From: Carnobacteriaceae bacterium zg-84
GTDB lineage: Bacteria; Bacillota; Bacilli; Lactobacillales; Aerococcaceae
DNA: 64,000 nucleotides
Direction of reading: 5' to 3'
Assembly (NCBI GenBank): GCA_013874835.1
Contig: CP059430.1
Coordinates: forward strand, 1,816,864-1,880,863
Shown here: positions 14,343 through 61,713 of the stretch, piece by piece
Layout: every line of letters begins with the position of its first letter
How positions within the stretch are numbered: position 1 is the first letter of the stretch
Translations under genes and position numbers: made by a program
Notes under the pieces: generated by a model
The model's input: the letters and a program-made list of their open reading frames with translations, nothing else
Database searches by the model: none
What the model was told of the DNA's origin: nothing

Positions 14343-15149
14343 CTACGATAATATCAAAGAATCGCTTGTCATAAATTCCCCACTTCTTTGGTGGAAGAGT
14401 TCCATCAACTGTGGTACAGTTAAATGTTTCTTCTCTTCTCCAGCTATGTCCACAACAACACGTCCACTTTGTAACATAATCAAACGATTTCCATAGCGAA
14501 TAGCATTTTCCATATTATGTGTAATCATAATAGTAGTGAGATGATGTTGTGTGACTATTTTCTCTGTTAAAGCCATAACCATTTCACTCGTTTTAGGATC
14601 TAAGGCTGCTGTATGTTCATCTAAAAGGAGCAATTTCGGACTAGCTAAAGATGCCATCAACAATGTTAATGCTTGTCTTTGTCCACCCGATAAAAATTCC
14701 ACACTTGTTTTTAAGCGATTTTCTAATCCTAAATCGAGCTCTTTTAATACCTCTTGATAAAAGGTTCTATTTTTTTCTTTAACACCCCACGACAAGCCTC
14801 TTGATTGCCCACGTTTCATCGCGATAGCTAAATTTTGCTCAATCGTCATACGACTTGCTGTTCCCATTTTTGTATCTTGAAACACACGGCTTATTTTTTT
14901 TGAACGTTTTCTAACAGGTTGCGTTGTAATATCTGTATCTTCTAAAACAATCTGTCCCATATCCGCTTGTAAAACACCTGCAATCACATTCATTAAGGTT
15001 GATTTTCCAGCACCATTACCTCCAATAACTGAAATAAAATCTCCCTCCATAACATCTAGTGAAAGACCTTTTAATACATGATTTTCATTGATTGTCCCCA
15101 GTTCAAAGGTTTTGTGCACATTTTTTAATGATAATATTGTACGCATCAT
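14343..15149 (-). CDS. Amino-acid ABC transporter ATP-binding protein (TrpZ-like)
   Basis: 268-residue ABC ATPase of the TrpXYZ-type uptake family. Walker A GGNGAGKST near residue 42, signature LSGGQRQAL, Walker B LLLLDEHTAALDP (Glu-His in place of the usual Glu-Pro), switch MITHN. The C-terminus has no extra domain. Overlaps the permease gene by 4 nt. Last gene of a four-gene operon read leftwards from the leader at 18.4 kb. Confidence 0.88.
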   Translation of the reverse strand: MMRTILSLKNVHKTFELGTINENHVLKGLSLDVMEGDFISVIGGNGAGKSTLMNVIAGVLQADMGQIVLEDTDITTQPVRKRSKKISRVFQDTKMGTASRMTIEQNLAIAMKRGQSRGLSWGVKEKNRTFYQEVLKELDLGLENRLKTSVEFLSGGQRQALTLLMASLASPKLLLLDEHTAALDPKTSEMVMALTEKIVTQHHLTTIMITHNMENAIRYGNRLIMLQSGRVVVDIAGEEKKHLTVPQLMELFHQRSGEFMTSDSLILS

Positions 15150-16039
15150 GCTTTCTCCTTACTTATTCTTGGTTTGATTTTTAATGCTTTTTGCACTTCA
15201 GGCACATACAAAATAACTGCCAATAAAATAGCCGATACAAGTTTCACCATTTGTGTATCCATACCTGGTATTTCTAATACAAAAACGATAATTAAACGGT
15301 ACACAATAGACCCTAGAATGACAGAAGCGAATCGCCAACCTAAACTCAAATTTTTAATCATGACTTCTGCAATAATAATCGATGCCAAACCAATCACAAT
15401 AGTTCCAACACCCATATTCAAATCAGCAAATCCATTATTTTGTGTTAAAAGTGCACCTGATAAAGCAATCAATCCATTACTAAGCATATAGCCTAAAATT
15501 TTCATAGCAGATACATTGATACCATTCGCTTCACTCATTGGCACATTATCTCCTGTCGCTAAAAAACCGAATCCAATTTCGGTTTTCATAAATAATGTGA
15601 CGAAAGTAGACATAACCCCTACAAAAATCAATCCAATGACAATCACTGCAAAAGACTTATCTAATCCCAAAGATTGTACTTGAGTGACTAATGTTTCTTG
15701 TTTCAACAATGCGACATTCGCTTTTCCTAAAATTTTCAAATTGATTGTATACAATCCCGTCAAGGTAATAATCCCCGTTAACAGCGCAGGAATTTTCATT
15801 TTTGTATGAATAAAACCAGAAATAGCACCTGCTATCATACCTCCTAACATACCTAAACAAGTTGCTAATAATGGATGCCCTCCATTAACTAACACACTTG
15901 CACAAATCGCTGCACCAAGAGGAAAACTTCCCTCTGCTGTTAAATCCGCAATATCTAATAATCGGTATGTAATATAGACACCAATCGCCATAACAGACCA
16001 TAACAGACCTTGCGATATACTTGATACAATCATATCCAT
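15146..16039 (-). CDS. Amino-acid ABC transporter permease (TrpY-like)
   Basis: 297-residue permease with about eight to nine hydrophobic helices, of the branched-chain/LIV-like permease superfamily found with ABC_sub_bind lipoproteins. The N-terminal MDMIVSSISQGLLWSVMAIG opens directly into a helix, and GEGSFPLG-like TAEGSFPLGA is the conserved early loop. It lies 12 bp after the second binding-protein gene. Confidence 0.87.
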   Translation of the reverse strand: MDMIVSSISQGLLWSVMAIGVYITYRLLDIADLTAEGSFPLGAAICASVLVNGGHPLLATCLGMLGGMIAGAISGFIHTKMKIPALLTGIITLTGLYTINLKILGKANVALLKQETLVTQVQSLGLDKSFAVIVIGLIFVGVMSTFVTLFMKTEIGFGFLATGDNVPMSEANGINVSAMKILGYMLSNGLIALSGALLTQNNGFADLNMGVGTIVIGLASIIIAEVMIKNLSLGWRFASVILGSIVYRLIIVFVLEIPGMDTQMVKLVSAILLAVILYVPEVQKALKIKPRISKEKA

Positions 16040-16051
16040 TTTATATTCCTC

Positions 16052-17002
16052 CTAATTTTTTAAAAGTATCGATGTGTCAATCCCCAACACTTTCGCTATC
16101 TCCTCATTAACATAAAGATTGACGACTTCCGGATACTCTACTGCCATTGTTTCTATTTTTTCACCTTTTAATAAACGAATAGCCATTTTAGCTGTTTGTC
16201 GTCCTAAAAATTCATAATCTGTACCATAGGTAAACAAACCGCCCTCTTTCACCATATCTATGGACCCTCCAATAATAGGCACCTTATACTTCGTAGATAA
16301 ATCACCTAGTAACGTCATCGTACTAGCAATCAAATTATCTGTAGGTACCATGATGACCTCTACTTCTTTCATCAAACGACTGGCTGTATCTTGTATATCA
16401 TGGCTATTCGTAACACCTTTAACAACAACTTCAATCTGTTCCTTGTTTAATAATTGCGTTAATTCCTCCACTTGAATGTGTGAATTTTGTTCACTCGTAT
16501 GATATAAAACTCCCACTTTTTGAATAGTTGGATATAAAACCTTCATCAACATCACTTGTTTATCCAACGGCACTCTATCACTTGTCCCACTCAACAAGCC
16601 AGACGGATTTTCCAAAGATGTTACTAACTCAGCAGATACCGGATCTGTTACTGCCGTAAATAGAACCGGTACTTTTTCAGAAACCATTGCCAATGTCTGT
16701 GCAGACGGTGTTGCAATCGCTAAAATAAAATCACTATCTCTAACAAGCTGCTCAGCCATCGTTTGCAACTGTTGCTGTTCACCCTGTGCATTTTGTACCG
16801 TTAGCACAACCTCTTCGCCATTTTTATATCCTTGTTGTGCTAATTCTTCCTCAAATCCTTTACGTGCTGCTGTCAAAGAATTATGCTCTACATATTGTAA
16901 AACCCCTATTCGTACAGCAGACTTACTTGTTTTTTGTGACATATTACATGCTCCTAAAGTCACCATAACCAATAAAACAACTATCCATTTTTTACACATC
17001 AT
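16052..17002 (-). CDS. ABC substrate-binding lipoprotein (TrpX-like, copy 2)
   Basis: 316-residue ABC_sub_bind (PF04392-type) lipoprotein. The signal peptide ends in the lipobox LGAC (Cys at about residue 19). Conserved blocks: RIGVLQYVEHNSLTAARKGFEEEL, FTAVTDPVSAELV, GVLYHTSEQNS and the C-terminal EYPEVVNLYVNEEIAKVLGI. It is clearly paralogous to the next gene upstream. Family members bind tryptophan or other aromatic or hydrophobic amino acids; specificity here is inferred partly from the Tyr/Phe leader. Confidence 0.87.
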   Translation of the reverse strand: MMCKKWIVVLLVMVTLGACNMSQKTSKSAVRIGVLQYVEHNSLTAARKGFEEELAQQGYKNGEEVVLTVQNAQGEQQQLQTMAEQLVRDSDFILAIATPSAQTLAMVSEKVPVLFTAVTDPVSAELVTSLENPSGLLSGTSDRVPLDKQVMLMKVLYPTIQKVGVLYHTSEQNSHIQVEELTQLLNKEQIEVVVKGVTNSHDIQDTASRLMKEVEVIMVPTDNLIASTMTLLGDLSTKYKVPIIGGSIDMVKEGGLFTYGTDYEFLGRQTAKMAIRLLKGEKIETMAVEYPEVVNLYVNEEIAKVLGIDTSILLKN

Positions 17003-17050: not shown

Positions 17051-18070
17051 TTACTCGATACCTAATGCTTTTTCTAATTGGACAATATCTAAACCTAGTG
17101 AAGCTGCCATTTCTTTGTTTATTTTAATTGACGGATTTTGTGGTTGTTGAACAGGAACTTCGCTTACTTTTTTACCTTTTAAAATTTCTACGGCTTGTTT
17201 TCCTGCTTGCTTACCAATTTCTTTGTAATCTACACCATACGTCACAAGCATCCCTTTTAAAACAGCTTCATCACCACCAAGAGCTGGTATTTTTTTCTCC
17301 ATTAAAACATCTTTAATGGTTGAAATCGTTGATGCAACTGTTGTATCTGTTGGGAAGTAAATAGCATCCACATGACTTGCAAGTGATGTTAATACTTGTT
17401 GTACATCATTTGTATTCGTTACAGTCATTTCAACAGCTTCAATTCCTTTACTTGCTAAAAACTGTTTTGCTGCATTTGCTTGAGATTCTGAATTCACTTC
17501 ACTAGAGTTATAAAAAATACCAACTTTTTTAGCATTCGGAACAACTGATAATAATTTCTCAACTTGTTTATCAACTGGTGTTAAATCGGTTGTCCCCGTC
17601 GCATTCCCATCTGGTTTTTCCACATCACTCACAAGCCCTGCTGATACAGGATCTGTCACTGCTGTAAATACGGTCGGTGTTTTAGCATCTACATTCACAA
17701 GTCCTTGTGCAGCCGGTGTTGCAATCGCAAAATGAATATTTTGCTTACCAGCTATTTTCTCACTCATACTTTGCAATTGACTTTGATCTCCCATCGCATT
17801 TTGTAATGTCACCGTCAAATTATCACCTTCTTTATAACCGGCTTCACGCAATGACTCTAAAAATCCTTCACGTGCACTTGTTAGAGCATCGTGTTCTGCA
17901 AATTGTAAAATACCAATTTTTACATGTTCCGTTTCTTTAACAGATGTAGATGACTGTTGACTACAACCTACCAATAATAAACTTAGTCCCATAAGTGCTG
18001 TTGCACCTATTTTTTTTACATTCCATTTTTTATTTTTCAATTGTTCCTGACTAAATCGAGTTTTTTCCAT
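17051..18070 (-). CDS. ABC substrate-binding lipoprotein (TrpX-like, copy 1)
   Basis: 339-residue paralogue of the neighbouring binding protein and first gene of the operon. A basic N-terminus and hydrophobic segment end in LLVGC, giving a lipidated Cys near residue 36. The ABC_sub_bind blocks KIGILQFAEHDALTSAREGF, FTAVTDPVSAGLV, GIFYNSSEVNS and VTYGVDY are present. AGGAGTGAG precedes the ATG. The mRNA begins about 318 nt upstream with a leader peptide and terminator. Two binding proteins sharing one permease/ATPase suggest two related ligands. Confidence 0.88.
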   Translation of the reverse strand: MEKTRFSQEQLKNKKWNVKKIGATALMGLSLLLVGCSQQSSTSVKETEHVKIGILQFAEHDALTSAREGFLESLREAGYKEGDNLTVTLQNAMGDQSQLQSMSEKIAGKQNIHFAIATPAAQGLVNVDAKTPTVFTAVTDPVSAGLVSDVEKPDGNATGTTDLTPVDKQVEKLLSVVPNAKKVGIFYNSSEVNSESQANAAKQFLASKGIEAVEMTVTNTNDVQQVLTSLASHVDAIYFPTDTTVASTISTIKDVLMEKKIPALGGDEAVLKGMLVTYGVDYKEIGKQAGKQAVEILKGKKVSEVPVQQPQNPSIKINKEMAASLGLDIVQLEKALGIE

Positions 18071-18112: not shown

Positions 18113-18142
18113 TGAAAAACCGTTTAGAAAATCTAAACGGTT
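18113..18142 (-). terminator. Attenuator terminator of the TrpXYZ-like operon
   Basis: Minus strand AACCGTTTAG, ATTTT loop, CTAAACGGTT followed by TTT, only about 45 nt before the first structural gene and inside the leader RNA. Its 5' arm ACCGTTTAGA can pair instead over ten bases (one G-U) with TCTAAGCGGT further upstream (about 18190-18199), an apparent antiterminator. Confidence 0.8.
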
Positions 18143-18188
18143 CATCTATATCTAAATGTCTATCACATAAAAAGATGATTGATGTACT

Positions 18189-18271
18189 ACCGCTTAGAAT
18201 CTTCATCTATGCGGATAAACACATATCAAACTGCCTTAGCCCCATAGATACAAACTTTTATTGTTTGTATC
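18189..18271 (-). promoter_or_regulatory. Alternative hairpins of the attenuator leader
   Basis: Two hairpins lie between leader peptide and terminator: GATACAAAC/GTTTGTATC (perfect 9 bp, 18247-18255 with 18263-18271) and CCGC-A-TAGA/TCTA-A-GCGG (about 18191-18214). The second sequesters the antiterminator strand TCTAAGCGGT. In addition GTTTGATAT (about 18222-18230) is complementary to ATATCAAAC inside the leader-peptide reading frame, so ribosome position on the peptide can change the fold. Confidence 0.6.
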
Positions 18272-18290
18272 CATTGACTGAACACAAACA

Positions 18291-18356
18291 TTATCTAAAG
18301 TAGCTAAAGTAATAACGATTTGTACGGTTCATTTGCTGTTTGATATTGCTAGTCAT
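18291..18356 (-). CDS. Aromatic leader peptide (21 codons)
   Basis: A tiny reading frame with a strong ribosome binding site (AAAGGGAG, 7 nt before ATG) just after the promoter. The peptide starts MTSNIKQQMN and ends NRYYFSYFR: three Tyr and two Phe codons among the last seven. It ends 220 nt before the first transporter gene, with alternating hairpins and an intrinsic terminator in between. This is the architecture of ribosome-mediated amino-acid attenuation, sensing Tyr-tRNA and/or Phe-tRNA. It is not a T-box: no specifier loop or TGG-N-ACCGCG motif is present. Confidence 0.75.
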   Translation of the reverse strand: MTSNIKQQMNRTNRYYFSYFR

Positions 18357-18394
18357 CTACAATCTCCCTTTCATGTATTTTTAATCTTGGGATT

Positions 18395-18423
18395 ACTATA
18401 TCCTAATTTTTTTGAAAAGTCAA
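18395..18423 (-). promoter_or_regulatory. Promoter of the leader-peptide/TrpXYZ-like operon
   Basis: Minus strand TTGACT (18418-18423), 17 bases, TATAGT (18395-18400). The start of transcription falls near 18388, about 30 nt before the leader-peptide ATG. Confidence 0.85.
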
Positions 18424-18738: not shown

Positions 18739-21015
18739 ATGGGACTGAAACATTTTTTACATAAAATAAATCAAACACTACTCATTACAACGCTTGCTGC
18801 AAGCAGCTTACTTTCACCATTGATAATTTTAGCAGAAGAAAATCCCTCAGCAACAGAAAACCATATAACATCTACCTATGAAGATGAGTGTAAAGTTGGA
18901 AGAAACGTCAACAAAACTTTTACTGATGTTAAAATTGAACATAAAAAGTGGGACGGTGAAAAAGTAGATGGTATTCCAAAAGGCTACTCAGATTCGAATG
19001 ATAAAATTTGGGAGATAAATGACGAACAAACGATTCATACTTTTTTTGACGGAACATTAAAAAACGAAAATCTTTCACTAAAAAAAGGAGATTTTTTCAC
19101 AGTTCAATTACCTCCTGAAACGCGTTTTGAAGATTTACTTCAACAAGATCTCGCTCGAGCAAAAGATATTTACACAAAAGATAACGATAACGCATTAGTC
19201 GCAACAGCCCACTATGATTCAACAACGAATATCATTACTTATATTTTTACAGACTATGTTGAAACTCACAAAGATATTCAAATTCATACAGAATATGTTG
19301 AAACACTGAACCAAGACAAACTTCGTGGAAACCAAGACTATACATTTACAGGAAACTATGTAGGTCATGAGTCTTCTTATAGATACTACTTAGACAACTG
19401 GTCCGAAAATGATGTTACCCGTTTTAAGAGTGTCAACTCGCAAAATCCCTCAGAAGTTGTCGTTAAACTAACAGAAGTCAATCCTATAAACAAGATGTTT
19501 AAAACGGTGATGAATGCAAAAGTTTCTGGTACTGGCAGCAAATTAACATTTACTTATGATCAAGATTCGAGAGTGTCACGAAATGCCGATACACATTTAA
19601 CTATCTATGCTGTTCCAGAAAACGAAATACTCGACGGAAGTTTCCGCTCTCATAATAATACATGGGAAGATGTGACTCATACTTTTACTAGAACAGAAAA
19701 CGGGAAAAATCTTGAATACACTACCCAAAATAACACGCATACAAAATATGTTGTTGTCGCAAGCGGGAATTATAATCCAGAATTTGGTATTTGGGTTCAA
19801 TTGATCACTACTTATACAGATACCATTTCAGGACAAACGAAATCCTCAGGAATTGTAGCCTACATGTCAAAAGAACCTACTCAAGAGTGGGCAAAAGCCA
19901 TTGAAAGTGGTGATTTAATACCAGTAGAAAGATGCGTTCCTCATAAAGATTTAAAAATCAAAAAAATTGACAGTATTGATAAAAACAAAGGTCTAGCAGG
20001 GGCCAAATTTATAGTGCGTAACGAGGCAGGAATTGAATACCCTGTCACAACAGATGATAAAGGTGAAGCCACTGTTTCCAATCTTAAATTAGGTAAATAC
20101 ACTATCACAGAAACAGAAGCTCCTAGCGGATATATTCTTGACAAAGAACCAAAAACAGTTGTTCTTGATGACACAACTCCAGCGATTGTACCTTACCAAG
20201 TTGAAAACATTGGAAAACGTAGTGTTAAAATAACAAAGGTCGATGCAGACGATAATACAAAATTGTTAGCAGATGTTGTCTTTGTCTTGAAACAAGGAAA
20301 TGTTGAAGTAAAAGAAGTAAGAACAGACAAAAATGGAGTAGCACTTTTTGAAGATATTCCATATGGTGACTACACGCTTGCTGAAAAATCAACCATTACG
20401 GGATACGACTTAAATCAAGAAACACGTCAAGTAAGCATTACTGAACCAGGTGAACCACTTGACCTTGGTATATTTACGAATCATAAAACAATAATACCAA
20501 CATTTGTTACACTTGAAGCAGAAAAAATGCTAATTGAAAAACAATTAGAAGCAGAACAATTTAAATTTGTACTCAAAGGTAACGGCATTGAACAAAAAAT
20601 AGCTACCAATGATAAATCAGGTCATATTACATTCCCAAAATTGACATTTAACAAAGAGGGAACTTATACGTATACAATTACCGAAGAAAATGACGGTCAG
20701 ACTAACATCACTTACGATATAAATGAAGTAAAAGTTCTTATCACAGTCACGAAAGATAAAAATAGTCAACTTGTTGCTAAAGTAATGTATGATAACTCGG
20801 ATAAATTACCAACTTTTACCAATAAGTATACTTATCCTATACCGCCAAGTACCACTCGAGTAACGAGTACAACTTCTACTCCTAATCCATCAAAAATACC
20901 AAATACAAAAACTCTTCCGCATACAGGTGAATCAACAGTAATGTGGATAGAAATACTTGGAATAACAATAATTATTTTAACTGGCTTTGTTTATAAAAGA
21001 AAAAACATAAAATAA
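18739..21015 (+). CDS. LPXTG-anchored Cna_B/FctA-type surface protein
   Basis: 758-residue cell-wall protein. Signal peptide at residues 1-32 (ending LIILAEE), then an adhesin-like N-terminal region of about 370 residues with one early Cys (position 51). Next come two SpaA/Cna_B prealbumin-like domains (KIKKIDSIDKNKGLAGAKF near 410; VKITKVDADDNTKLLADVVF near 495) and a Spy0128/FctA-type domain ending in TYTYTITEEN and TNKYTYP (about 590-695). The C-terminus has the sorting motif LPHTG, a hydrophobic helix and YKRKNIK. SpaA and FctA folds usually carry Lys-Asn isopeptide bonds and occur in pilins and stalks. No sortase gene is in the window. Confidence 0.88.
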   Translation: MGLKHFLHKINQTLLITTLAASSLLSPLIILAEENPSATENHITSTYEDECKVGRNVNKTFTDVKIEHKKWDGEKVDGIPKGYSDSNDKIWEINDEQTIHTFFDGTLKNENLSLKKGDFFTVQLPPETRFEDLLQQDLARAKDIYTKDNDNALVATAHYDSTTNIITYIFTDYVETHKDIQIHTEYVETLNQDKLRGNQDYTFTGNYVGHESSYRYYLDNWSENDVTRFKSVNSQNPSEVVVKLTEVNPINKMFKTVMNAKVSGTGSKLTFTYDQDSRVSRNADTHLTIYAVPENEILDGSFRSHNNTWEDVTHTFTRTENGKNLEYTTQNNTHTKYVVVASGNYNPEFGIWVQLITTYTDTISGQTKSSGIVAYMSKEPTQEWAKAIESGDLIPVERCVPHKDLKIKKIDSIDKNKGLAGAKFIVRNEAGIEYPVTTDDKGEATVSNLKLGKYTITETEAPSGYILDKEPKTVVLDDTTPAIVPYQVENIGKRSVKITKVDADDNTKLLADVVFVLKQGNVEVKEVRTDKNGVALFEDIPYGDYTLAEKSTITGYDLNQETRQVSITEPGEPLDLGIFTNHKTIIPTFVTLEAEKMLIEKQLEAEQFKFVLKGNGIEQKIATNDKSGHITFPKLTFNKEGTYTYTITEENDGQTNITYDINEVKVLITVTKDKNSQLVAKVMYDNSDKLPTFTNKYTYPIPPSTTRVTSTTSTPNPSKIPNTKTLPHTGESTVMWIEILGITIIILTGFVYKRKNIK

Positions 21016-21065: not shown

Positions 21066-21109
21066 AAAAAACTCTCGTATTCAGTAAAAGCTGAATACGA
21101 GAGTTTTTT
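21066..21109. terminator. Bidirectional intrinsic terminator
   Basis: Perfect 19-bp stem (21066-21084 with 21091-21109), A6 on the left and T-run on the right, between two convergent surface-protein genes. Confidence 0.92.
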
Positions 21110-24100
21110 TATTGTTCATTTTTCCTATAAAGAACATACCCCATAAGCATAGACAATATACCTATGCCTGCAACAAACATTGATACTGATGTATCTGTAC
21201 CTGTTTTAGGCAATGATTGATTTGTTGCATTCATTTCATGGTTATTTGAAGATGTTGTTTCTTTATCAGATTCTGGTGTCGAAGGTTCATCTGATTTATC
21301 TGGTATTCTCACATAAACATAAGTGTTCGTAATCACATAGTCTTCAATTTCAGTTTTATAACCTTTAACCTCTTCTTCTGAAACAGAATAAACAATTTCT
21401 TGTCCGTTTTCATATTTCGGTAAATCTTTAAACGTATATGACCATTCATTAACTTTTTCTTCAGTTTCTGGTGCTTTTACCACTTGAGTATCAATGACTT
21501 TATCTCCACGTTTCAAATTTATCGTAATAGATTCTGGACGTTTATTAAACACATTATCGTAGTCTTTCCACACTTTTTTACCAATAACATCAATTGTTTC
21601 TGGTATATGAGTATTTGTAATAGTGATTTCACCATCTACGCTTGTTTCATATGTTGCTTCATAATCTTTAACCGGTACTTCTCGGACAGAATAGGCAATT
21701 TCTTGTCCGTTTTCATATACTGGTAGTTCTTTAAATTGATATCCCCATTCTGAAGCAGTTGTATTATCTTCAGGAGCTTTAACAATTTGTTTTTGAACAA
21801 CTTTGTCGCCATTCATCAACTCAAGCGTAATAGATTCTGGACGTTTACCATCTTGGTTGTTTGCATCGTCCCATACTTTTTTACCTTGAATATCTTTCAC
21901 TTCAGGAGTATGGGTATTCGTAATGACATACTTAGTGATATCCGTTGCATATCCATCAACACTTACTTCCTCGACTGTATAGACAATTTCTTGTCCTGCT
22001 TTATATTTTGGTTGATTTTGGAATGTGAATGACCATTCATTTGGTGTGTCAGACTGTCTTATGACTTGTTCTGATACAAGTGTTCCATCTGCTAACAAGC
22101 GTACCGTGATTGTTTCTGGACGTTTTCCGTCTTGGTTGTTTGCATCATTCCATACTTTTTTACCTACAATATCAATCATTTCTGGCTTGTGTGTATTCGT
22201 AATCGTATATCCATTGACGAATTTTGTATAAATATCTCCTGACAATTCTTCATCAACCGTATACTCAACTTTTGTGCTTTTTTCGTAAAGAGGTAATTCT
22301 TCAAACGTGTACTGCCATGTATTATCGTCTGTTTGATTTGCAATAGTTAATTCTTTTCTTATAACTTCAGTAGACTTACCATCTATTTTTTTAGATAGAA
22401 CAACTGTCACAGTTTCTGGACGTTTTCCGTCTTGATTATTTGAATCTTCCCATGTTTTCGTTACAGTCACTGATGTTTTCTTAGATGCATATGTAAATGT
22501 TACAACACTAGCTGTTTCTACGTACTCACCTTTCGGTTGACCTTCTGTCTTAATTAACTCATAACCTTCAACATCTGTTCTTGGAGAAAACTCATACGTC
22601 TTACCAATAATATCTGTTTTTGTTTCCGTAGAATTTTTCTCTTCATTGCCAATAAATACATGATTTACTGTTACTGTTGATCTCTTAGGAATGACTAATC
22701 CTGCATTTACTACTTTGACTTTTTGTGTTGGAGAGAGAGTAAAACTATTTTCGGCTCTATCATTAATATCCGTACCAATAATATTATCTGTACTTGGAAC
22801 CAGAGTAGCAACGGTTTCTTCATCTTCTAAAGTAACCTTCACTTTATAATTACCTCTTAACTCAACAACATCCTCAAATGTATACTGTCCATTGGAATTT
22901 GTTTTTGTTGCAGCAATTTCTTTTTCTGTACCATCTTGAGAAACACTATATAATGTTACTTTACGTTCAGGCACAAGAGTATCACCGCCATTGTAAATAC
23001 CATCTTTATTGACATCATCAAAAATCGTTCCTCTGACAGTGTATTCATTAAATAATAGAATAGCTCTTTTAGACTCAACAGCTGATGTTATATCGTTACC
23101 ATAATAATATGCTGCTGTATTTACCGCTTTTTGTTTGTCGGTCACTGATACTGTGCTTGGTACTGCCACATCAAATGTTAGCGAATCAGTGTTGCCACTA
23201 TTTAACATGTAGCCTTGCTTCATCACAGCTTTAAACATCGTTACTTTTGAAAAATCGCTCACTTGATCAGCACTAAGCCAAGTACTTCTTGCATTTTCTG
23301 ATAGTGTCTGTTTTGGTGTATCTGTTGAATAATACACATCATAATTTTCAGTTGCGACAATCGGCCCATTCAATGTCACTGGAAATTCAGTTTCACGGGG
23401 GAGGTAGTCACCATCTTGATTGGCAACCGTTTGTAAATCATCTAGCTTTGGTAAAACATCAATAATCGAGATGTTAGACACCGGATTATCGAGCACATTG
23501 ATTAACGACACTTTATAATTGGCTGTACCCGTTCCATCAACATTCGCACCACTTGTATACTGCGTTTCTTCTGGTAATTTTACTGTTTTTGTAATAATCA
23601 ATTCTTTAGGTGGTGCAAATGAAAACTTATTTGTCGCCTTAACGATTTTATCGTCTGTCTTACCATTGTCATTTGTGTCTAATTCATCAGGATTTGATCC
23701 TAAATACCAAGCTTCTTCACCATTTCTTTCATTATTCGTCCACGACAGATAAGTTTCAATCGAGTTTGATCCTTCAGCTAACTCACGCGTAGCCTTGAAG
23801 ATTGGCCCCATATACATATATAACGTTTCATCTTTTTCAGTTTGAGTCAATGTCACCGGAAAAATATAAGCTGTTTTCCCCGTGTTTTTATAATTGTAAA
23901 TGATATCATAATTTTCTGTATCAACTTTTAATCGCTCATCATCAAACACTGAAAATTCTTGAAATTCTAAACCTTCTGGTACTAAAAAAATAACTTTCCC
24001 TTGTTCCATCATATTAGATTGAATCGTACGATTTTGCGCAATTTTAAATCGTGTTAGCGGACGGACCGTATCTCCTACAAGAGCAGCTGTAGAACGTGAG

Positions 24101-25794
24101 GTACCATTTATTAATAAAATATTTTCAAACACAGATATATTAGCACTATTCCCAACTAAATAAATTTTATTTTTTTCATCTGTTATAGGTGAATTTCCAT
24201 TTCCAACTGAAGAGGTTGAACTGAATTTATTTATAACCGGATAAGGATCTGTACTTCCTTTTTCTAAACGTTCTCTCAAGGTTGTTTTAACTAATTCATG
24301 TCCTGCTTTTGTTAGCTGTGTCTGATACTGCAAGTGAATTTGTGTCTGTCTATAATAAGGGATACTCACTTCTTTATCAAAGACTAATTTAACTGTTTTA
24401 TATTCTTTAACAGGTATTTCTTGAAACGGTATTGTTGAATATTTTGCCCCGACATAATTCCTAAACGCATCATTTCCAGTTGCTTCTGTGGGTTTAATAT
24501 TTGTTGCGATAACTTCTTCTGTCCCATCTGGTAAAATACCAATCAATTTATTTGCAGATAAAGCTGCAATCGTACTCTCGTCGTAGTGGTCTTTATAATG
24601 CAGAACATATTTATAACCTTTAAATGCTAGTATATTTTCATGTGGCGAATCTTCAATAGATTTAAAGACTACTCTCAAATTAGAACTATCTTGGCCGTCA
24701 AGTTGATCTTTAAATCCCCATGCAATATCCCATTCGAATGTTTGGAAATTATCTTCATCAAAAACTCGAACATCTTTATCACCAGTAGCAATTTTTCTAT
24801 CAAGTGCCTGCTTTTGAATAATACCTGCAGAATTTGTTGCAATATATTGATGGGTACGATCAGTTGAATTGACTTGTCTTCCATCATCTACAACCACACC
24901 CTTTTCATTGACAAATTGCCGCGTAACATTGTAGACAACCTTGTCTCCGATTGTAAAATCATTAGAATATTTAAAATCAACATGTTTATATTCATCTTTG
25001 CTTATTGTAGGTACAATCATTGAAACGGTTTTTGTTTCACTATTATAGGTCCACTCCCTATTATTTGGTAAGGTTGGATCGAAAATGACATGTTCTGGTA
25101 CAGATATCTCTATTTTTGTGGATCGACTATCACCTAAAGTTTTACTGTAGAAATCACCCGACACACTAACCCTCATTGTATCAATATAATCAGAACTTAA
25201 TTTTGTATGAGTCTCATCGGTATCTTTATCAAATACATCAAACAAGCCAGAAGAAGGGTACTTTTCCCCTGCAATAAATACATAATATACCCGAGTATTT
25301 GCTTCTAGTGTTACAGAACTATCCTCAGATAGTAATACATTATTTTTACTATACAATTCCGTTTTTATTGTAGACTTTTCACCTTTGTACCAAGCACGAT
25401 TTGTTAAGATTGCATTAAATGGTACCGAAATTGATGCCCCTGCAGCAAGTAACGTATAATTCAAACGAATAATATAGTGTGTTTCATTTTCAGTAATCTC
25501 TACACTAGATAATCCTTCTGCTGTTGAAACATTTTCAGAATTAGGTTGATTAAATTTTGTCTTATCTAAATAGACAAGTGAATATGGACTATCCGTTGTT
25601 TCACTGGATCCCGTTGCAGACACATATACTGTTGCTGTAGAACCTGTATCAAACTTAGTTTGATCATCTAATGTATATAATCTTGTTGAAACAGATGCAA
25701 TATTAGGCACCTCTTCTGCAAAAACACGCACTGTTTGCATCACTGTAGCAAACAATAATGTTATACACAACAAGACGTTTATTATTTTTTTCAT
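21109..25794 (-). CDS. Large LPXTG surface adhesin with SdrB-, MucBP- and Cna_B-type domains
   Basis: 1561-residue wall-anchored protein. Signal peptide ending VRVFAEE (about residue 27); a long N-terminal adhesive region to about residue 900 containing isopeptide-type folds; an SdrD/SdrB-like domain (GTIFDDVNKDGIYNGGDTL near 935); a MucBP-like segment (TVNHVFIGNEEKNSTETK near 1040); and four Cna_B repeats marked KTWEDSNNQDGKRPE, KKVWNDANNQDGKRPE, KKVWDDANNQDGKRPE and KKVWKDYDNVFNKRPE. The C-terminus is LPKTG, hydrophobic helix, YRKNEQ. AAAGGAG precedes the ATG. Intact and presumably expressed; ligand unknown. Confidence 0.9.
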   Translation of the reverse strand: MKKIINVLLCITLLFATVMQTVRVFAEEVPNIASVSTRLYTLDDQTKFDTGSTATVYVSATGSSETTDSPYSLVYLDKTKFNQPNSENVSTAEGLSSVEITENETHYIIRLNYTLLAAGASISVPFNAILTNRAWYKGEKSTIKTELYSKNNVLLSEDSSVTLEANTRVYYVFIAGEKYPSSGLFDVFDKDTDETHTKLSSDYIDTMRVSVSGDFYSKTLGDSRSTKIEISVPEHVIFDPTLPNNREWTYNSETKTVSMIVPTISKDEYKHVDFKYSNDFTIGDKVVYNVTRQFVNEKGVVVDDGRQVNSTDRTHQYIATNSAGIIQKQALDRKIATGDKDVRVFDEDNFQTFEWDIAWGFKDQLDGQDSSNLRVVFKSIEDSPHENILAFKGYKYVLHYKDHYDESTIAALSANKLIGILPDGTEEVIATNIKPTEATGNDAFRNYVGAKYSTIPFQEIPVKEYKTVKLVFDKEVSIPYYRQTQIHLQYQTQLTKAGHELVKTTLRERLEKGSTDPYPVINKFSSTSSVGNGNSPITDEKNKIYLVGNSANISVFENILLINGTSRSTAALVGDTVRPLTRFKIAQNRTIQSNMMEQGKVIFLVPEGLEFQEFSVFDDERLKVDTENYDIIYNYKNTGKTAYIFPVTLTQTEKDETLYMYMGPIFKATRELAEGSNSIETYLSWTNNERNGEEAWYLGSNPDELDTNDNGKTDDKIVKATNKFSFAPPKELIITKTVKLPEETQYTSGANVDGTGTANYKVSLINVLDNPVSNISIIDVLPKLDDLQTVANQDGDYLPRETEFPVTLNGPIVATENYDVYYSTDTPKQTLSENARSTWLSADQVSDFSKVTMFKAVMKQGYMLNSGNTDSLTFDVAVPSTVSVTDKQKAVNTAAYYYGNDITSAVESKRAILLFNEYTVRGTIFDDVNKDGIYNGGDTLVPERKVTLYSVSQDGTEKEIAATKTNSNGQYTFEDVVELRGNYKVKVTLEDEETVATLVPSTDNIIGTDINDRAENSFTLSPTQKVKVVNAGLVIPKRSTVTVNHVFIGNEEKNSTETKTDIIGKTYEFSPRTDVEGYELIKTEGQPKGEYVETASVVTFTYASKKTSVTVTKTWEDSNNQDGKRPETVTVVLSKKIDGKSTEVIRKELTIANQTDDNTWQYTFEELPLYEKSTKVEYTVDEELSGDIYTKFVNGYTITNTHKPEMIDIVGKKVWNDANNQDGKRPETITVRLLADGTLVSEQVIRQSDTPNEWSFTFQNQPKYKAGQEIVYTVEEVSVDGYATDITKYVITNTHTPEVKDIQGKKVWDDANNQDGKRPESITLELMNGDKVVQKQIVKAPEDNTTASEWGYQFKELPVYENGQEIAYSVREVPVKDYEATYETSVDGEITITNTHIPETIDVIGKKVWKDYDNVFNKRPESITINLKRGDKVIDTQVVKAPETEEKVNEWSYTFKDLPKYENGQEIVYSVSEEEVKGYKTEIEDYVITNTYVYVRIPDKSDEPSTPESDKETTSSNNHEMNATNQSLPKTGTDTSVSMFVAGIGILSMLMGYVLYRKNEQ

Positions 25795-61416: not shown

Positions 61417-61664
61417 AAAAAACTCGTCCTTTTACTAGTCTTGCTAGTAAAAGGACGAGCGTTATATCATTATAATCTCGTGTTACCACCTTTATTCGCT
61501 TATATATCACTATATAAGCCTCACCCAGTACGATATACACACGTATATTTATACTGTGTCACTGTAACGGGTGCATCCGTGTTACCTTAATCATTCGGGT
61601 AACCCACTCAGTAGCCATTTTCAAACAAATACTTGTACTTACTTTCACCACACGTAAGCTCTCT
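61417..61664 (-). promoter_or_regulatory. Methionine-type T-box riboswitch
   Basis: Leader RNA read on the minus strand. Stem I begins AGAGAGCTTACG (about 61664). The specifier region reads GAAAATGGCTACTGAGTGGG with an ATG (Met) codon. The T-box sequence AAAGGTGGTAACACGAG lies at 61477-61493. The terminator is a perfect 16-bp stem (61423-61438 with 61444-61459) followed by TTTTTT. Uncharged tRNA-Met should favour the antiterminator and turn on metNIQ. Confidence 0.9.
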
Positions 61665-61713
61665 AAAACAATTTTTTGATTTACTTTCTACTTCATTGTG
61701 TTTCGATACGTTG

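Follow-up and report, generated by a model that had tools for sequence, protein, structure and literature searches.

Introduction

In the trp, his and phe leader-peptide attenuators of proteobacteria, stalling of the ribosome at the cognate codons of a short reading frame selects an antiterminator or a terminator. Attenuators of the leader-peptide kind are usually viewed as separate inventions, one per operon. An earlier sequence-only reading of the locus described here took classical attenuation to be typical of proteobacteria, but it is not confined to them: his leader peptides are known in Firmicutes (PMC2965389, PMC9413887), including Erysipelotrichales and others (PMC9413887), and ilv leader peptides are known in Staphylococcus and Listeria (PMC5794164, PMC5864092). 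For aromatic amino acids, two uORFs with F and Y have been described at shikimate genes in five genomes including Clostridium novyi, with no Lactobacillales among them in the accessible part of that report (PMC6429828), and a Phe uORF has been described before aroF (PMC8632094). The T-box, which is widespread in Lactobacillales (PMC2494555), uses one scaffold with the specificity given by a codon.

Two further RNA families come into consideration. The Enterococcus faecium RNA sRNA_2410 is 195 nt long, was detected by RNA-seq and Northern blot as two transcripts and is raised under daptomycin (PMC5593968). The trpB motif (SRC-39-1) occurs in Firmicutes and Fusobacteria before trpB and before an amino-acid ABC transporter; it was published as a riboswitch candidate with the ligand unassigned, and the accessible text of the report does not mention a uORF (PMC11109978).

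Here we describe a leader from Carnobacteriaceae bacterium zg-84 that is very probably a ribosome-mediated transcription attenuator of the Tyr/Phe type and a member of a homologous, codon-swappable family in Lactobacillales. The principle, stalling at cognate codons that chooses the fold, is shared with the proteobacterial trp, his and phe leaders and with the his and ilv leaders of Firmicutes. Three features set the family apart from the known leader peptides. One homologous scaffold is used with Tyr, Phe, Trp, Ile or Leu codons, and with His codons outside the order; the codon strand takes part in base pairing with a strand further downstream; and the Tyr/Phe and Ile/Leu types have a two-step hairpin chain. 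Whereas the T-box reads the tRNA without a ribosome, this scaffold is ribosome-based. The mechanism class is already known, and the large codon-swappable scaffold would be new within it. A literature search, with most subscription journals outside its reach, did not find the leader family described as leader-peptide attenuators.

Results

Organization of the leader

The window, by which we mean the whole 64,000-nucleotide stretch of DNA that was analysed, carries the Tyr/Phe leader frame, the hairpins, the terminator and the TrpX-like operon that the sequence-only reading had described; the leader elements lie at 18423-18115 on the minus strand, and the operon follows them (Table 1). The frame has 21 codons and ends with NRYYFSYFR before the stop. 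The promoter that had been called a consensus one is a consensus-like site with 10 of 12 consensus matches and a 17-nt spacer; however, a promoter scan found 3 sites as compared with 3.0 in shuffled sequences, and the promoter match alone is at chance level. The intrinsic terminator (18143-18117, its arms F and G at 18141-18119 and the T tract reaching 18115) is the only one that the scan detected in this region, and shuffled sequences gave 0.0 on average. Strand E is complementary to the terminator 5' arm at 10 of 10 positions, one of them a G-U pair, in agreement with the proposal that this arm can pair with a strand hidden in a hairpin. The leader holds a mutually exclusive antiterminator and intrinsic terminator, as an attenuator should.

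Table 1. Features of the leader and of the operon behind it (window coordinates).
Feature	Coordinates	Strand	Remarks
Promoter-like site TTGACT-17-TATAGT	18395..18423	-	-35 TTGACT 18423-18418; -10 TATAGT 18400-18395
Shine-Dalgarno AAGGGAG of leader frame	18364..18370	-	
Leader reading frame MTSNIKQQMNRTNRYYFSYFR and stop	18291..18356	-	ATG 18356; stop 18293-18291
Regulatory codons Tyr Tyr Phe Ser Tyr Phe	18297..18314	-	A-site -7 to -2 relative to stop
Strand A' (codon strand)	18292..18308	-	Partner C' when ribosome absent; family swap test
Strand A	18279..18289	-	Pairs with B; hairpin A:B of 11 pairs including G-U (18289-18279 with 18273-18263)
Strand B	18263..18273	-	Partners: A or C
Strand C/C' (GTTTGTATCTATGGGGCTAAGG)	18234..18255	-	Partners: B, A' or D; C proper spans 18255-18243
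Strand D	18205..18214	-	Partners: C' or E; hairpin D:E 18214-18205 / 18198-18189
Strand E (TCTAAGCGGT)	18189..18198	-	Partners: D or F
Strand F (terminator 5' arm)	18132..18141	-	E:F = antiterminator
Strand G (terminator 3' arm and T tract)	18115..18128	-	
First gene behind leader, ABC_sub_bind / TrpX-like binding protein	17051..18070	-	
Second TrpX-like binding protein	16052..17002	-	
Permease (BPD_transp_2)	15146..16039	-	
ABC ATPase	14343..15149	-	

Distribution of the leader family

A DNA search found relatives of the leader in 57 of 100 genomes, the matches mostly covering the last codons through strand C. We then used a covariance model (R1) of 48 Tyr/Phe-type leaders, which begins at the stop codon so that the codons are excluded from it. 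The model matched in 262 of 395 Lactobacillales genomes and in 61 of 80 genera (E<=0.01), with up to five matches in one genome. Among the matches listed from a pattern scan were Enterococcus, Streptococcus, Vagococcus, Tetragenococcus, Trichococcus, Alkalibacterium and others.

A leader frame with a Shine-Dalgarno (SD) sequence was present at 103 of 105 R1 matches, its stop lying from 5 bases before to 14 bases after the model start; the 105 matches come from 40 genomes that were themselves picked among genomes with matches, and exclude antisense rows, G075:C1:490519 and the greater part of the rows with E above 0.001. An ATG-started frame with an SD of at least 4 was found at 97 of the 105 matches, against 2% of 1690 positions drawn at random from these loci; under a looser frame rule 23% of the random positions qualified. 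Some members have lost the first stop, and reading continues for a few codons. The related leaders across the order and the excess of frames over random positions place the window element above chance. One of the two frameless matches (G011:C21) has visible YYFSYFR codons and no start by the rule used. The other lies in the genome of the window (G000:C1:1774230-1774354, E 0.013); considered as a third leader of that genome, it is weak and frameless and probably a chance match.

A named set of at least 120 loci was picked by a pattern that holds the codons S-Y-F-R, and was excluded from the codon counts. Five of 120 named-set loci have no frame, including both Pedobacter and both Shewanella loci, which are probably chance matches. 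Outside Lactobacillales and within the same class, matches were found in six genomes (G108, G128, G219, G247, G257, G268), with 398 genomes searched in all, and a phylum search of 299 genomes gave no scaffold match outside the order; both searches used stricter filters by which weak matches are lost. The scaffold is rare outside Lactobacillales.

Codon classes and the genes behind the leaders

The sequence-only reading expected aromatic codons to be conserved in homologous leaders. They are kept in the Tyr/Phe class, where the frames end with YYFSYFR, FYFSYFR or YFYSYFR, with a Tyr-only form YYYSYYG and a Phe-only form FFGFFR, but they are swapped elsewhere, for Trp codons (WQNWRR, WQSWHR) or for Ile/Leu codons (IISIIIR, LLLLSLIIR). 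Strands A, B, C and D are common to the Tyr/Phe, Trp and Ile/Leu types in a 33-member mixed alignment, which argues for homology and not merely for similar design. In one genome outside the order (G128) a His type, ending FHHHHRFKGL, is followed by a HisZ-like gene (Pfam tRNA-synt_His, 320 aa) and then, by our reading of the translation, by a probable hisG-like gene.

For the downstream genes, which were searched on the leader's own strand only, proteins were clustered by blastp and one or two representatives per cluster were named. Branched-chain amino acid genes were found behind 18 of 18 Ile/Leu frames (10 LivJ-like binding proteins, 3 IlvA, 3 IlvE and 2 IlvB) as compared with 0 of 85 other frames (Fisher 2e-20). 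Behind the Trp frames the ABC_sub_bind cluster was found 16 times and TrpB twice. The Tyr/Phe frames precede the ABC_sub_bind cluster (53), AroE (5), a PheA-like protein (1) and, in 8 cases, some other transporter or a dehydrogenase. For the named Tyr/Phe leaders a gene was found in 109 of 115 cases: 60 binding proteins, 31 AroE, 6 DAHP synthases, 5 AroB-like proteins, 3 chorismate synthases, 1 shikimate kinase and 3 others, one of which (L057) is probably unrelated. Outside the order, Tyr/Phe-type leaders of G247, G257 and G268 precede DAHP synthase-like genes, the profile search having been made on the G268 gene only. Codon identity follows the gene behind the leader, and from the codons we infer the substrate of the binding proteins.

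Several loci are of interest on their own. In G326 (L236) and G386 (L220, L245) tandem binding-protein genes 1.4-1.9 kb apart have a Tyr-only leader on one and a Phe-only leader on the other. In G219, outside the order, Tyr/Phe-type leaders (L324, L325) stand before an aminotransferase and before a transketolase, an enzyme that could supply erythrose 4-phosphate for aromatic synthesis. Three Tyr/Phe-type leaders (L282, L285, L288) precede a CitMHS-like transporter (L282 was profiled), for which the codons would predict an aromatic substrate.

The genome of the window carries both Tyr/Phe-type and Trp-type leaders. Its Trp-type leader (L157, G000:C1:579176-579306), with the frame MTQTKQCVYLSVNSWQSQ ending NSWQSQ, has a single Trp codon, which would be unusual for a sensor, and lies in front of a TrpX binding-protein gene. 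On the NCBIfam TrpX model (NF041285, cut-off 390) this Trp-leader binding protein scored 435.7, above the cut-off, while the two binding proteins of the window scored 296.8 and 304.0, both below it. The cut-off was passed by 7 of 10 Trp-type proteins and by 0 of 10 Tyr/Phe-type proteins, with overlapping scores: the three Trp-type failures scored 314-352 and the best Tyr/Phe-type protein 356. A tree was built from 65 of the 70 cluster 0 proteins. In it the 15 proteins behind Trp frames (of 16 Trp-codon binding proteins) lie on one side of one branch with a support of 100/100, separate from every Tyr/Phe-codon protein; when the codon labels were shuffled, the mean number of label changes on the tree was 13.7. 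In Streptococcus suis, trpXYZ is under a Trp T-box (PMC9382623), and three Tyr/Phe leaders stand before binding-protein genes scoring 287-294 on TrpX, which would fit a division of labour between trpX and the Tyr/Phe-leader binding proteins. The proposal that the window transporter carries Tyr or Phe rather than Trp thus gains comparative support, the genome having a separate Trp-codon leader before its TrpX protein, and Tyr/Phe would be the substrate to expect.

Pairing and co-variation

Pairing was analysed in 151 non-redundant members (119 Tyr/Phe, 17 Trp, 15 Ile/Leu) of 213 leaders, 5 of 218 having been dropped for short flanks; where a pairing involved D, E or F, 128 of the 151 were used. 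In the swap test, each strand was paired with its own partner or with the partner of another member. For A':C' the median was -17.5 kcal/mol with the own partner and -10.5 kcal/mol with C' of another class, the own partner being better in 92% of the swaps; it was better in 80% against all partners and, within class, in 77% (Tyr/Phe), 70% (Ile/Leu) and 55% (Trp). Upstream control codons gave 50% in the same test. For E:F the values were -13.5 own and -8.2 swapped, with the own partner better in 86%. Both pairings co-vary, the kind of compensatory change that the sequence-only reading proposed to look for. Other stems gave 93% (D:E), 99% (F:G), 71% (A:B) and 59% (B:C), C':D was modest at 65%, and the control pairs D:F and E:G gave 45% and 48%. 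The D:E strands in these tests came from an automatic detection that was wrong for some members, in which it took E:F or longer hairpins; a motif-based redetection recovered D:E in 149 of 151.

The conserved codon-strand pairing joins UUUAGCUAYUUUAGAUA with UAUCUAUGRUGGCUAAAG. A compensating change is seen in several Streptococcus members (L038, L053, L106, L146), where UUU-AGC has become UAC-AGC or UAC-GGC together with a change of GGCUAAAG to GGCUGUAG or GGCUGUGG; L125 carries GGCUGUCC in place of GGCUAAAG. In the window itself the A':C' pairing is weak (0.17 without ribosome). Another match proposed by the sequence-only reading, between ATATCAAAC in the peptide frame and GTTTGATAT downstream, is present (18346-18338 / 18231-18223) and stabilises the no-ribosome fold of the window, but the pairing there is specific to the window. 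As a family trait, pairing of this region was rejected (real versus swapped, P = 0.488), the window being among 5 of 151 members that low.

RNAalifold, given nothing but the alignments, formed A:B and C':D for the Tyr/Phe leaders; for the mixed alignment it formed B:C and D:E. These two predicted structures correspond to the folds proposed for the on and the off state. In both alignments the co-variation score was above 500 of 500 shuffles, with the structures taken from the same alignments and the shuffles ignoring relatedness. Neither further pair types on alignment A2 (453 of 500 shuffles as high) nor pairs changed on both sides on alignment A1 (60 of 500 as high) stood above the shuffles.

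Folding with the ribosome in place

Then, how does the position of the ribosome affect the choice of fold? The transcript was cut just before E, the ribosome footprint was removed and pairs across the ribosome were forbidden. In the Tyr/Phe class (n=118) the mean probability of C':D was 0.18 without ribosome. With the ribosome A-site at codons -12 to -10 relative to the stop it was 0.24-0.28, rising to 0.45 at -9, 0.69 at -8 and 0.77-0.78 at -7 to -3, and falling to 0.52 at -2 and 0.32 at the stop. This plateau falls on the Tyr/Phe codons; 108 members went up, 3 down and 7 stayed flat. The Ile/Leu class (n=15) behaved similarly, with 0.03 without ribosome, 0.38-0.46 at -12 to -10, 0.68-0.81 at -7 to -3 and 0.40 at the stop. 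The positional effect was weak in the Trp class (n=16), with 0.46-0.49 stalled, 0.33 at the stop and 0.41-0.53 at -12 to -7 (9 up, 3 down, 4 flat, p=0.15). An earlier ribosome model that allowed pairs across the ribosome gave the same curve shape with lower values. When the last 21 bases of the Tyr/Phe frames were replaced by those of Ile/Leu or Trp frames, the no-ribosome probability of C':D rose from 0.18 to 0.50 and was higher in 75 of 118, which suggests that the codon strand itself helps to hold the untranslated system off.

The window follows the class in the first switch, as the attenuation scheme predicts: the probability of C':D was 0 without ribosome, 1.0 at -7 to -3 (Tyr15 to Tyr19) and 0.09 at the stop. 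It also reached 0.6-1.0 with the ribosome stalled at -12 to -8, ahead of the Tyr codons. For the second switch of the window (E:F against D:E), equilibrium folding gave no separation of the ribosome states: the probability of E:F stayed at 0-0.05 throughout if pairs across the ribosome were allowed, and near 0.8 for every ribosome position, the stop included, if they were forbidden. The cost of E:F in the window was 5.5-6 kcal/mol relative to the free fold, without ribosome or with a stalled one; a fold forced onto bases under the ribosome, as for A:B at the stop, is meaningless. In the Tyr/Phe class the E:F step, as compared with the stop, went up in 63, down in 5 and was flat in 33 of 101 members.

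Relation to Rfam families

At gathering cut-offs Rfam gave nothing at the window leader, and the relationship is visible only below them. With a loose threshold RF02863 (sRNA_2410) matched each of the 11 Lactobacillales loci tried; four reached its cut-off of 61, and the window, at 53.3 bits (E 4e-6), stayed below it. A leader of this kind in Enterococcus lactis scored 206 bits, the model starting within the leader frame and ending at the terminator foot. sRNA_2410 would be the same element as the leader family, from which it differs in being filed as an sRNA; its transcripts would fit premature termination, the link being made through the E. lactis leader and not through the E. faecium locus.

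RF04312 (trpB motif) with a loose threshold matched one of the 11 loci, weakly. At its gathering cut-off of 59 it had no match in the window, and the Trp-type copy in the genome of the window scored 56.7, below the cut-off. Each of the 7 matches that exceed the cut-off is preceded, at a distance of 18-24 bases, by the end of a Trp-codon frame with an SD. Five weaker matches comprise two with Trp frames, one with His, one with Tyr/Phe codons and no start by the rule, and one without a frame. The trpB motif has the same architecture just after the stop of a short frame, with the window leader as its Tyr/Phe relative. Judged from these matches, sRNA_2410 and the trpB motif appear to be members or close relatives of the leader family.

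A T-box (RF00230) had no match at the leader; its only match in the window, at 61448-61705 on the minus strand (128 bits), lies before an ABC ATPase with a NIL domain, a permease and an NlpA lipoprotein. We take these three genes to be a methionine uptake set.

Discussion

The comparative evidence favours ribosome-mediated attenuation by Tyr/Phe codons, as the sequence-only reading had it. Homology, the frame, the match of codons and genes, the alternative pairings with their co-variation and the first switch are supported by computation. In the proposed mechanism, a frame without ribosome would let A' pair with C' and A with B, leaving D:E and the terminator F:G in the off state; the window variant would instead fold mainly into B:C and its window-specific stem. 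When charged tRNA-Tyr and tRNA-Phe are plentiful, the ribosome would reach the stop and cover A' and A, so that B:C, D:E and the terminator form and the operon is off. When Tyr or Phe is scarce, the ribosome would stall with a Tyr/Phe codon in the A-site, covering A' and leaving A free; A:B and C':D would then form, E would pair with F, and RNA polymerase would continue into the transporter operon. Four points of this scheme are our inference: that the ribosome stalls, that termination occurs and is relieved in vivo, that the second switch operates in the window, and which substrate is transported.

Other explanations of the same RNA have to be considered. In a metabolite-binding riboswitch the RNA after the stop would bind the amino acid directly and the short frame would be incidental. 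The trpB motif was indeed classed as a strong riboswitch candidate, with a classic attenuator left open (PMC11109978), and the RNA is conserved beyond the frame. Yet the SD-preceded frame ends near the motif start in 103 of the 105 matches and its codon class agrees with the gene, and the conserved strands form mutually exclusive pairings common to members predicted to sense different amino acids, which makes a riboswitch very unlikely. Arrest by the nascent peptide, for which TnaC is the model case, would have the peptide sense the free amino acid in the ribosome tunnel and not starvation at the codons. The peptide ends are conserved within a class (YFSYFR before the stop), but the conserved Ser (AGC) and Arg (AGA) codons are accounted for by the pairing with C', the whole peptide end is swapped (YYFSYFR, IISIIIR, WQNWRR) on one RNA scaffold, and the predicted switching is maximal over the cognate codons in two of three classes; arrest is therefore even less probable.

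In Enterococcus, sRNA_2410 carries the annotation of a trans-acting small RNA, and such a role would account for discrete E. faecium transcripts that are altered under daptomycin (PMC5593968). Attenuation itself, however, leaves discrete short transcripts, and a small RNA would not call for an amino-acid gene behind nearly every leader (the leader's strand being searched), an embedded frame, or alternative pairings that lead to a terminator. We hold this the least probable of the three, while a terminated leader could possibly have a role in trans.

Taking attenuation at the leader codons as the preferred reading, we consider it likely that a single Lactobacillales scaffold has been re-targeted by codon swaps and compensating changes of the partner strand to Tyr, Phe, Trp, Ile and Leu, and to His outside the order. 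Such a scaffold would be the ribosome-based equivalent of a T-box; it would explain sRNA_2410 and the trpB motif, and transporter substrates could be read from its codons. The amino-acid meaning would then have been rewritten on one homologous scaffold, as in T-boxes, and the evolution of specificity could be traced in sequence. The trpB motif, an orphan riboswitch candidate, and the sRNA family sRNA_2410 each receive a suggested function, and unassigned ABC transporters receive a substrate prediction, Tyr or Phe where similarity alone suggests Trp, the tandem Tyr-only and Phe-only leaders of G326 and G386 being further cases. The sensor should also be re-programmable with few changes of codons and partner strand.

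The surroundings of the attenuated operon deserve a brief mention. Next to it, a plus-strand gene (18739-21015) encodes a pilin-like protein that has an LPXTG anchor and SpaA/FctA domains, and a minus-strand gene (21109-25794) encodes a protein of 1561 aa in which Cna_B repeats occur.
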